Shown: positions 6,755-9,408 of the stretch, piece after piece
How the letters are laid out: the number at the start of each line of letters is the position of its first letter
How positions within the stretch are numbered: position 1 is the stretch's first letter
From: Rhizobium mesoamericanum STM3625
Lineage (GTDB): Bacteria > Pseudomonadota > Alphaproteobacteria > Rhizobiales > Rhizobiaceae
Direction of reading: 5' to 3'
Assembly: GCF_000312665.1 (NCBI RefSeq)
Contig: NZ_HF536773.1
Location: forward strand, 235,582-299,581
Length of the DNA stretch: 64,000 nucleotides
Made by a program: the position numbers and the translations under genes
The notes under the pieces: model-generated
Databases searched by the model: none
What the model was told of the DNA's origin: nothing
The model's input: the letters and a program-made list of their open reading frames with translations, nothing else

Positions 6755-8119
6755 TCATTCTCCGCGGATAACCGCCTCCGCCGAAAGCGCTGCGCTAAGG
6801 AGCGCCTCATCGCGTTTGCGCATGGCAGAAAGCAGAAAGCCGACCGGCATGTCGGCATCCCCCGTCCCACAGGGGATCGATACGCCGCACCAATCGAGGA
6901 AATTGCCAAGCATCGTATTGCGCAGCGTCTTGCCGTTGGTTGCGAAAAACAGATCGTCGTTGGCTTCCAGTGGCGCGATTGGCGGGGCGACGTGGGCAAC
7001 GGTCGGGAAGGCAACGAAGCTGTCACCCACGAGACGCTCGACATCGGCTATCAACTTTTCGCGGGCATCGAGGATCGCAAGATAGTTAGACAACGATGTC
7101 TTTTCGCCAAGCTTGATGCGCATCACCACGCGGTGATCCATGTCGGCGGCCTGCGGTCCGGACAACCGTTCGCGGTGAAGCGCGAACGCTTCTGCGGTCA
7201 CCAAGGCACCATATGTTGCCATGAGCGCCAGAATTTCATCGAAGGCCGGGATCCTAAAGCGGCTGATCGATGCGCCCTCCGCCGCAAGCCAGTCGACCGC
7301 CGTCTCGAACGCTGCAACAACGCCGGCTTCAGCGCCATCGAGCACGACGTTGTCAGGGATCACGATATCGAGCCCCTTGAGCGGGCGGGCCACAATTGAG
7401 GGCACCGCGGCACCTCGCATTCCAGCATCGATCCAGACCGCATCCTGAACGGTCCTTGTGAGCGGACCGAGCGAATCCAGACTTTTTGCAAGCGGATAGA
7501 CACCCGTCATTGGGTAACGACCCCAGGTCGCCTTATATCCGACAATACCATTGAGGGCGGCAGGGATGCGAACAGAGCCTCCCGTATCCGTGCCCATCGC
7601 CACCGGTACGAGGCCAGCTGCCACCACAACGCCAGCGCCGGACGACGAACCGCCCGGAATGCGCGGAACATCGCTGCTGCGCGGATTGTGCGGCGTCCCG
7701 TAGTGCGGATTGATGCCAAGCCCCGAAAAAGCAAATTCGCTCATGTTGGTGCAGCCGATCGAGACCATGCCGGCCTGCTCCAGCGTTGCCACGACGGTCG
7801 CATCCGCCTGCGCAACGGGACCGCTTGCCAGTACGGTCGATCCGGCCGTCGTTGTCCGCCCCTTGATATCAAAAAGATCCTTCCAGGCGATTGGTATGCC
7901 ATCCAGCATGCCGCGCGAGCGGCCTTCCTTCATGCGCTTGGATGAGGCTTTTGCCTCTTCCGTCGCACGATCTTTCAGGATTGCCGTGAAAACCGATCGA
8001 TCCGCATAGGATTCGATGCCATCGATCACTGCTTCCGTCACCTCGATCGGGTCGACAGCTGCCGTTTGAATGAGACTGGAAAGCTGCGCGACTGACATTG
8101 CGCCAAATGATTTGCTCAT
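6755..8119 (-). CDS. Amidase (amidase signature family)
   Basis: 454 residues, typical for the amidase-signature family, which hydrolyses amides through a Ser-cisSer-Lys triad. The Lys is in IAWKDLFD, and the glycine/serine-rich core GGSSSGAGVVVAAGLVP plus GTDTGGSVRIPAA holds both serines. ATG at 8119 is preferred; the longer in-frame version adds 24 residues with no family resemblance, although the Shine-Dalgarno here is weak. It is the first gene of a minus-strand operon with an isomerase-like and an aldolase gene, so it probably releases ammonia from an amide that is then processed as a carbohydrate-like acid. No regulator gene is adjacent, but a palindromic operator lies 70 bases upstream. 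Confidence 0.9.
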   Translation of the reverse strand: MSKSFGAMSVAQLSSLIQTAAVDPIEVTEAVIDGIESYADRSVFTAILKDRATEEAKASSKRMKEGRSRGMLDGIPIAWKDLFDIKGRTTTAGSTVLASGPVAQADATVVATLEQAGMVSIGCTNMSEFAFSGLGINPHYGTPHNPRSSDVPRIPGGSSSGAGVVVAAGLVPVAMGTDTGGSVRIPAALNGIVGYKATWGRYPMTGVYPLAKSLDSLGPLTRTVQDAVWIDAGMRGAAVPSIVARPLKGLDIVIPDNVVLDGAEAGVVAAFETAVDWLAAEGASISRFRIPAFDEILALMATYGALVTAEAFALHRERLSGPQAADMDHRVVMRIKLGEKTSLSNYLAILDAREKLIADVERLVGDSFVAFPTVAHVAPPIAPLEANDDLFFATNGKTLRNTMLGNFLDWCGVSIPCGTGDADMPVGFLLSAMRKRDEALLSAALSAEAVIRGE

Positions 8120-8189
8120 GGGGTATCCACAGTCTGACTGACTTGCCGAACTAAGCCGAATTTGATCGGCGAGCCAAGCCCTTAAAGTC

Positions 8190-8213
8190 AAATCAAACCG
8201 ATTGGTTCGATTT
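8190..8213. promoter_or_regulatory. Palindromic operator upstream of amidase operon
   Basis: Arms AAATCAAACC (8190-8199) and GGTTCGATTT (8204-8213) are inverted repeats matching at 9 of 10 positions around a 4-base spacer. This 24-bp near-palindrome sits between the amidase start and the divergent small membrane protein gene, the expected place for a dimeric repressor or activator site (GntR or IclR type sites are of this size). The cognate regulator is not in the window neighbourhood. Confidence 0.5.
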
Positions 8214-8340
8214 TATGAACACTGCGTTTGTGTATTCGGTCTTCAATCGGAGGCGAAAAAAACACACATGGCTTTTGCCTGCTGCCCGGCGAGAGGACGA
8301 TCGCACGCCGGTGCATGCATCAGTGTAGGAGTTAACAAAA

Positions 8341-8649
8341 ATGACAAACGGCGAGAGTTGGAACACGGCGCGCAGCGACGTGGTGCACCGCCATGCAACG
8401 GATGACGAGTTGAACGGCATGGGCGAACGTGAATACGCCGAGCATGTAAATGCACACAAACCTTCCATATCAGAACGCTTCATCGTTCTTGCGGCCTTTG
8501 CGCTTCTGGGCGTCGCAGGGCTGACGGTTCATTATACGGCACCCATGGCGTCAAGCCTTGATACGGCTGCGGTGGGATCGATCTCAGAATCGTTACCCGC
8601 AGTCGATTATTGCCGTGAGCACAGCCCATATCCGGACAGAACCTGCTGA
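8341..8649 (+). CDS. Small membrane-anchored hypothetical protein
   Basis: 102 residues: a charged, hydrophilic N-terminal half (residues 1-45, cytoplasmic by the positive-inside rule is uncertain), one transmembrane segment (RFIVLAAFALLGVAGLTVHY, ~46-65), and a short exported tail ending with two cysteines (DYCREH and RTC) that could pair. AGGAG nine bases upstream of ATG supports the start. No family recognised. It is divergent from the amidase operon and precedes the hairpin that controls the DUF1810 gene. Confidence 0.65.
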   Translation: MTNGESWNTARSDVVHRHATDDELNGMGEREYAEHVNAHKPSISERFIVLAAFALLGVAGLTVHYTAPMASSLDTAAVGSISESLPAVDYCREHSPYPDRTC

Positions 8650-8662
8650 GGATCTGTCGCGC

Positions 8663-8728
8663 GTCGGGCATGGACAACCCTCCCCCGCGATATAGTTATG
8701 CGCAAGGGGAGGATTGTCGATGCCCGAT
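8663..8728 (+). promoter_or_regulatory. Long hairpin sequestering the ribosome binding site and start codon of the DUF1810 gene
   Basis: Left arm 8663-8685 and right arm 8706-8728 are 23-base inverted repeats; 20 Watson-Crick pairs plus one G-U pair form, with mismatches only at 8678/8713 and 8672/8719. The right arm contains the Shine-Dalgarno GGGGAGGA (8706-8713) and the ATG (8720-8722). The 20-base loop can add a further CGC/GCG stem. In an mRNA started upstream, both initiation signals would be paired, so this looks like a translational switch. The mirror arm also creates a ribosome binding site and start codon on the opposite strand. Confidence 0.55.
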
Positions 8729-9157
8729 GAGATCGACTACAATCTGGAGCGCTTCGTGGATGCGCAGAATGGCGCCTACGAGAAAGCGCTTTCGGAGTTA
8801 AGGGCCGGACACAAGCGATCCCACTGGATGTGGTTCATCTTTCCTCAGATGGCCGGCCTCGGCTCGTCGTACATGGCAGAGAAATACGCTCTTCGCTCAG
8901 CCGAGGAGGCCGCAGCCTATCTTGCAGACCCCGTTCTCGGCAGCAGGCTTTTGCGCTGTGTCGAGGCCGTCCTTTCGATCGAAGGCAAGTCCGCTCACGA
9001 CATCTTTGGATCTCCTGATGACCTCAAGCTGCGGTCGTCCATGACGCTCTTTGCGGCGATCAGCGACCACGGGTCGCCTTTTCATAAGGTGATTGACCGG
9101 CTCTATCTGGGAGAGTTCGACGATCGCACCATCCAGCTCCTCAACGCCACCAATTAG
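8720..9157 (+). CDS. DUF1810 domain-containing protein
   Basis: 145 residues covering the whole DUF1810 family (calpastatin-like in old annotations): YNLERFVDAQNGAYEKAL near the N-terminus, the hallmark SHWMWFIFPQMAGLG (~36-50), and YLADPVLGSRL (~68-78). Biochemical role is unknown. ATG at 8720 is chosen because the strong GGGGAGGA lies six bases upstream; the in-frame TTG at 8714 would touch the Shine-Dalgarno. Its start region is buried in a 23-bp hairpin. The 3' end overlaps a convergent small gene by 17 bases. Confidence 0.88.
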   Translation: MPDEIDYNLERFVDAQNGAYEKALSELRAGHKRSHWMWFIFPQMAGLGSSYMAEKYALRSAEEAAAYLADPVLGSRLLRCVEAVLSIEGKSAHDIFGSPDDLKLRSSMTLFAAISDHGSPFHKVIDRLYLGEFDDRTIQLLNATN

Positions 9158-9356
9158 CGCCGTTCGAGTGCTCAAGCGCTTCTATCTCGTTTGAGATCTC
9201 GTTGATCCGCTCTTTCCATTGGTGATCGGTGCCGTCGCCGATCTCTTCATCACCGAAGCAATCACGCGCCTCAGAGAGCGCGAGCTTGGCCTCGAGTTCG
9301 GCGCGTTTTCCATACAGACGATGAAGGTAACTGTGATCCATGCCCTTACGTCCCAT
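9141..9356 (-). CDS. Small coiled-coil hypothetical protein
   Basis: About 71 residues, almost entirely charged and predicted helical (KRAELEAKLALSEARD, WKERINEISNEIEALEH), ending NGANWWR. Two starts are possible, ATG at 9356 or ATG at 9341, neither with a strong Shine-Dalgarno. It follows the tetR gene on the same strand by 52 bases and overlaps the DUF1810 3' end. Unrecognised; the amino acid pattern is convincing for a real soluble helical protein but the length is short. Confidence 0.45.
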   Translation of the reverse strand: MGRKGMDHSYLHRLYGKRAELEAKLALSEARDCFGDEEIGDGTDHQWKERINEISNEIEALEHSNGANWWR

Positions 9357-9408
9357 ATCTTTTGAAACGAGAGTAGAGGCTATAGTTCCGGCCCAAGGGC
9401 GGATGCCA

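Follow-up and report, generated by a model that had tools for sequence, protein, structure and literature searches.

Intercistronic hairpins that mask a ribosome binding site (RBS) and act through translational coupling are a known kind of control. ROSE-like RNA thermometers, known from Rhizobium species, mask the Shine–Dalgarno (SD) sequence in cis, and passages of PMC3669281 give U(U/C)GCU as the motif opposite it. In phage T4, the genes e, soc, 49, and I-TevI hold the SD and/or the AUG in a helix on long transcripts. According to passages of PMC3014915, lysozyme synthesis from the long transcripts of gene e is cut 100-fold, and transcripts from late promoters, which lack the 5′ arm, are well translated; the same passages document this nested-promoter layout for gene e and describe it for I-TevI.

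Here, we describe a hairpin at the start of a DUF1810 gene in the window, by which we mean the whole 64-kb stretch of Rhizobium mesoamericanum STM3625 DNA that was analyzed. Like the T4 elements, it is predicted to place the SD and the AUG in a helix on long transcripts, and, as in gene e, promoter-like sequence lies in its 5′ arm and loop region, here in the window's branch of the genus only. Unlike the T4 elements, it belongs to a bacterial two-gene cassette, known here from sequence, and the motif is missing in the larger branch. As in coupled intercistronic hairpins, the start of the second gene would be locked within one apparent operon, but the upstream gene, ORF1, stops before the stem. 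Cis masking of the SD is shared with ROSE-like thermometers, from which the element differs in being a single hairpin in which the AUG is also paired, with no predicted melting at 42 °C; the arm opposite GGGGAGGA is CCCTCCCC rather than U(U/C)GCU, and DUF1810 does not belong to the small heat-shock genes. Hairpins that mask an RBS are well known in themselves, and it is the twist that is possibly new in bacteria. We put the probability that this hairpin is a selected cis-acting translational lock on the ORF1–DUF1810 message at roughly 0.65.

The fold and its position over the SD and ATG come directly from computation. As claimed in the initial annotation, the arms at 8663–8685 and 8706–8728 form 20 Watson–Crick pairs and one G–U pair, with two mismatches over the 23 positions, around a 20-nt apical region (8686–8705) that contains GATATAGTT (8689–8697) and is characterized below by its ATAGTT counts in each branch. 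An extra C–G pair (8662/8729) closes the hairpin, giving a total span of 8662–8729 on the plus strand. The left, anti-RBS arm (8662–8685), delimited by fold and shuffle evidence, includes a TGGA box (8671–8674) suggestive of a −35-like element. The right arm (8706–8729) carries both the SD sequence GGGGAGGA (8706–8713) and the ATG (8720–8722) within the stem, again as claimed.

Folding the surrounding transcript, a check that the initial annotation had proposed, gave −81.5 kcal/mol for 161 nt (8640–8800), versus −53.8 (sd 4.2) for shuffled sequences (z = −6.6; 0/200 shuffles equally low). At −47.7, the hairpin is the most stable of 31,966 70-nt segments taken from both strands of the 64 kb in steps of 4 (mean −20.0, sd 5.3). 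Predicted pairing probabilities at the window locus are 0.996 for the ATG and 0.86 for the SD block. Start pairing is a less singular measure, as 5 of 47 gene starts in the window, which may include the DUF1810 start itself, combine an ATG value of at least 0.9 with an SD value of at least 0.6. A repeat search of the window with a 9-base seed did not list the arms, whose longest exact run is 8. Searching 8100–9400 against Rfam 15 gave no family at the gathering score; the only matches up to E = 1 were two microRNA models on the minus strand (21.1 versus 70 and 17.2 versus 117 bits).

The left arm had also been said to carry the same signals facing the other way. These mirrored signals are present, but they follow from the pairing itself, since a CAT opposite an ATG reads ATG on the other strand. 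They carry no separate message, because the antisense frame ranges from 4 to 187 codons over the 71 loci having that ATG, and we rejected an antisense gene starting in the left arm. The left-arm ATG was likewise rejected as a true start or upstream open reading frame, its frames being scattered among the 94 loci defined below: it is open in-frame through to DUF1810 in 18 of the 94 and absent from 22.

The DUF1810 gene (8720–9157, plus strand) encodes 145 amino acids from the ATG at 8720 and matches PF08837 with an E value of 1.5e-57 and 193.7 bits, against a Pfam gathering score of 25. Its frame was listed from a TTG at 8714, but the conserved start is the ATG at 8720, where 91/94 loci have an ATG. 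An AlphaFold2 model of the protein is all-helical (pLDDT 95), and its sole PDB match at E up to 0.001 is 2JEK, Rv1873, a conserved hypothetical protein that gives no clue to function. Directly upstream on the same strand, ORF1 (8341–8649) encodes 102 amino acids with one hydrophobic segment by eye, apparently a single membrane segment, and a C-terminal CREHSPYPDRTC tail. ORF1 has no match in Pfam, NCBIfam, PADLOC, or PHROGs, and a search of both proteins for defence and phage families returned none up to E = 1. ORF1 appears to represent a small Rhizobium protein family without a name, with a conserved Cys-containing, CREHSPYPxRxC-like C-terminal tail.

The initial annotation had recognized the masking, a claim that stands, but had missed the two-gene cassette around the hairpin. 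ORF1 lies directly before DUF1810 on the same strand in 94 of 110 loci (L001–L110). A locus was counted among these 94 cassette loci, the window locus (L001) included, if its fetched flank contained an ORF1 match; the 16 loci without ORF1 were set aside, two of them (L027 and L028) being pieces of a single gene. Relatives of ORF1 are commoner than the cassette, with matches at E up to 1e-3, many of them weak, in 142 of the 148 genomes of the genus. Named carriers of the cassette include R. ruizarguesonis, R. leguminosarum, R. laguerreae, R. bangladeshense, and R. sophoriradicis, as well as R. aethiopicum and R. mongolense, whose matching loci (L021, L096) fall short of 0.9 in start pairing. 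Among named records, the closest are plasmids of Rhizobium sp. T1473, T1470, and T136, with about 82% identity over 96% of 8200–9200.

In most relatives that carry the cassette, the RBS and start codon are still predicted to be masked. The DUF1810 start is predicted to be paired at 0.9 or above in 70/94 cassette loci (median 0.999), compared with 7/87 ORF1 starts from the same loci (median 0.47; 7 rows lacked an ATG or flank) and with 9/100 DUF1810 starts outside the cassette, these being assigned to the closest in-frame ATG, which may not always be the true start. Both an ATG value of at least 0.9 and an SD-block value of at least 0.5 were found in 62/94 cassette loci, and the predictions leave between a third and a half of the SD block open in several clades. 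The plus-strand RNA is more stable than its complement at 78/94 cassette DUF1810 starts versus 48/106 non-cassette starts, and also at 69/94 ORF1 starts. When the left arm was shuffled with the right arm fixed, none of 300 shuffles was as stable as the window locus; at most 10 of 300 were as stable in 15 of 29 loci, and the other 14 did not pass.

Conservation with compensatory change was likewise found by computation. The initial annotation had pointed to relatives as the place to look for covariation, and there the pairing is mostly kept with compensatory change, although it falls below 0.9 at the start codon in 24/94 cassette loci. In an alignment of 28 loci (A1), 84.4% of cells are standard pairs, versus about 30–50% (maximum 49.7%) in slid registers. 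The covariation score is 0.171, versus 0.124 (sd 0.009) in shuffles, of which 0/500 reach 0.171, and 0.095–0.145 in slid registers, none of which reach it. Two measures are weak: pairs with two-sided change number 10 versus 7.2, a value reached by 29/500 shuffles, and the further pair types are reached by 116/500. In addition, the register slid by −2 has 36 cells with two-sided change, more than the 23 of the true register. A1 retains 28 of 42 dereplicated loci; the 14 that were dropped (L013, L015, L019, L020, L056, L070, L072, L074, L075, L085, L092, L094, L096, and L098) differ in register or have lost the hairpin, so the covariation scores, and the covariance model built from A1, lean towards the hairpin.

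Because related sequences can exceed shuffles without structure, we also re-dealt the arms among loci. In 28 unselected sequence clusters, re-dealing worsened the pairing, with 12 of 20,000 permutations as good as the original arms, and among 11 loci chosen as hairpin-bearing, at least three of which (L012, L018, L041) belong to one clade, own arms beat swaps in 53/55 pairs. RNAalifold found no structure (0.0) in a 92-row alignment, comprising 92 of the 94 cassette loci (two identical), and no more than 8 pairs, their covariation term being −0.08, in the 28-row alignment. One reason is that registers slip between clades: a G–G mismatch lies just after the ATG in a large clade and just before it in the window's clade. 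The core CAT:ATG pairs hardly vary and therefore say little about covariation, whereas the middle and apical stems change in sequence yet stay paired.

The hairpin is restricted to the ORF1–DUF1810 cassette. A covariance model from A1 matched at E < 1e-6 in 73 of 148 genus genomes, in all 73 at the DUF1810 start, and three more on-locus matches had E values of 0.004–0.006; the model misses some hairpin-bearing genomes of other register, for example those carrying L019, L056, and L020, where the start codon is paired nonetheless. Outside the cassette, in 57 DUF1810 loci that have no ORF1 and 20 ORF1 loci lying apart from DUF1810, nothing fell below E = 0.27, and the best three non-cassette matches (E = 0.27–0.92) look unrelated. 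An order-level search of 199 genomes with stricter filters gave clear matches in three members of the genus and E values of 0.003–0.08 in seven others. Apart from the DUF1810 site itself, the window's genome (stricter filters, 31 candidates scored) gave one match up to E = 1, and that is the opposite strand of this site. With this single site, we rejected a dispersed palindromic repeat of the REP or RIME kind. Other copies of the element were also rejected: four weaker off-locus matches that were inspected, from other genomes, each overlap an open frame of at least 100 codons.

On a tree of the DUF1810 coding region minus its start (94 rows, quick method, midpoint root, 35 of 91 inner branches open), the hairpin state, set at a start pairing of 0.9, needs 12 changes. 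The midpoint root has hairpin-bearing rows on either side, and the hairpin is missing from several lineages; the simplest reading is an old element with several losses. The element is a structured RNA with covariation support, strong in the 73 genomes named above among those searched and matched by no Rfam family at threshold.

We propose that on a message running from ORF1 into DUF1810, the 5′ arm (8662–8685) would fold onto the DUF1810 RBS and ATG once transcribed. Ribosomes would then be blocked at the DUF1810 start while the upstream ORF1 would remain translatable, and since ribosomes cannot start on the locked hairpin, DUF1810 would be off or very low on the shared message. DUF1810 would be made only when the hairpin is bypassed, by a 5′ end inside it, or actively opened. 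We infer that the two genes are co-transcribed, that DUF1810 is repressed, and that there is some bypass or opener. The ORF1 stop ends at 8649 and the stem starts at 8662, 13 nt on. The upstream stop is thus neither inside nor beyond the masking stem, for which reason a ribosome terminating on ORF1 should not unfold the hairpin, and we rejected translational coupling to ORF1. An intrinsic terminator was rejected as well: two terminator-like sites were found in 8150–9400 (8511–8526 and 9063–9077), none at the hairpin and none between ORF1 and DUF1810. Without coupling, a terminator between the genes, or melting, DUF1810 would thus be silenced on the ORF1 message. A point against a lock is that, at about −46 kcal/mol and without any known means of opening, the hairpin would just shut the gene off.

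The translational lock also has a more specific form, in which the left arm and loop would double as a promoter of the T4 gene e type, made up of the TGGA box and the GATATAGTT loop. Read-through RNA from ORF1 would be locked, and RNA begun in the loop just before GGGGAGGA would be free and well translated. In the window's branch, TGGA is present in 20/20 loci and ATAGTT in 14/20, hairpin-less loci included, with a spacing of 17–18 nt, mostly 17, between TGGA and the ATAGTT-form motif in the 16 loci having both; the motif also occurs in most of the L013-type lineage, which lacks the pairing. A lock near −46 kcal/mol would also be easier to bypass than to open. In the other branch, however, TGGA is found in the region in 62/74 loci and ATAGTT in 0/74. 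A sigma-70 scan of 8150–9400 gave one site (8714–8743), about as many as in shuffles, and none with a −10 element in the loop. For the EcfG1 motif GGAAC-N16-CGTT, reported for R. etli in passages of PMC3892343, a scan with a spacer of 16 or 17 and at most two mismatches found 10/94 loci versus 299/1,880 shuffles, which is not above chance; with no enrichment over shuffles, an EcfG (general stress) promoter inside the hairpin was rejected. For these reasons, the absence of ATAGTT from the other branch, the lack of EcfG1 enrichment, and the lack of a −10 element in the loop, we regard the nested promoter as tentative.

The initial annotation had suggested that translation might depend on temperature, a small RNA, a protein, or the position of the transcription start, and among these controls the start position is the most attractive option. 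The same stretch could then serve as lock in the RNA and as key in the DNA, the left arm and loop promoting the only translatable DUF1810 message, a combined proposal that we consider rather doubtful. Under it, some of the genus would have lost or replaced the promoter while retaining the RNA lock, and DUF1810 output would reflect the internal promoter alone, free of read-through leakage, as for T4 lysozyme. If the nested promoter is real, a bacterial operon would be using what is otherwise a phage trick. A mapped transcript start at this position may already exist, as 5′-end maps appear to have been published for agrobacteria and Bradyrhizobium.

A trans-acting factor, whether a small RNA, an RNA-binding protein, or DUF1810 itself, could instead open or hold the hairpin and make it a conditional switch. 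A strong SD together with strong masking is a usual mark of switches, and both are found here; some clades, moreover, have a weaker, interrupted fold (about −30 kcal/mol in L005) that would be within reach of such a factor. Inspection of the alignment by eye, however, gave no single-stranded sequence common to all clades, and the DUF1810 model resembles only Rv1873 and therefore offers no hint of RNA binding. We consider this switch doubtful.

Intercistronic hairpins that stabilize an upstream message are known, and the short distance from the ORF1 stop to the stem, 13 nt in the window, would suit a processing or stabilizing hairpin at the 3′ end of the ORF1 mRNA, with masking of DUF1810 incidental. 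Across cassette loci, anything from 74 to 191 nt separates the ORF1 stop from codon 8 of DUF1810, but the hairpin stays with the DUF1810 start, and the 20 ORF1 loci away from DUF1810 are without a model match up to E = 1. A 3′-end function is accordingly unlikely.

Persistence of the TGGA box in 9 of 12 listed hairpin-poor loci would fit a left-arm promoter or operator conserved at the DNA level alone, the pairing being a by-product or chance. The variable middle and apical stems that nevertheless keep their pairing, the better pairing of own over swapped arms, and the strand asymmetry in favor of the plus-strand RNA all speak against this explanation, which we judge quite unlikely. An RNA thermometer that melts on warming is very improbable, and temperature control as raised by the initial annotation finds no support, for although SD masking is the thermometer principle and ROSE elements are known in Rhizobium species (passages of PMC3669281), the start codon is predicted to be open at 42 °C in at most 3% of molecules in 10 of 11 loci and in 10% in L003, SD-block opening is predicted to change little from 20 to 42 °C, the window helix keeps its full predicted fold to 70 °C, and neither a U(U/C)GCU opposite the SD nor an Rfam thermometer match was found.

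A translational lock would offer a starting point for understanding DUF1810, a family that is widespread yet has no assigned function: in Rhizobium, DUF1810 appears to be kept off on the operon message, with ORF1 as its partner. The claim that DUF1810 proteins have no known regulator fits the literature mentioning DUF1810 at the level of titles and listings, where entries on "calpastatin" and "Rv1873" likewise give nothing on regulation. None of the titles and abstracts surveyed dealt with this hairpin element.

A conserved block 5′ of ORF1 (8200–8248, plus strand), GATTGGTTCGATTTTATGAACACTGCGTTTG...CTTCAA (also given as TTGGTTCGATTTTATGAACACTGCGTTTG...CTTCAA), is largely kept by eye in 24 cassette loci and several ORF1-only loci. 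It is probably the promoter or operator of the ORF1–DUF1810 message. The block core TGAACACTGNGTTTG has one exact match in the genome, at 8216 of the window, and 14 further matches with one or two mismatches, no more than a reversed control.

Three genomes (G079, G118, and G151; loci L101, L106, and L099) have ORF1 and DUF1810 about 13–14 kb apart on one contig, and there the covariance model finds no hairpin at DUF1810. In six other loci (L006, which is R. ruizarguesonis by its coordinates, L052, L053, L063, L065, and L088), a palindrome ending in GACGCGCGGCGCTGTAG lies between the ORF1 stop and the hairpin, immediately 5′ of the left arm, and all six keep the hairpin region. On the 3′ side of DUF1810, a small convergent open reading frame (9141–9340 of the window, minus strand) is apparently kept in this position, as judged by eye, in some relatives.
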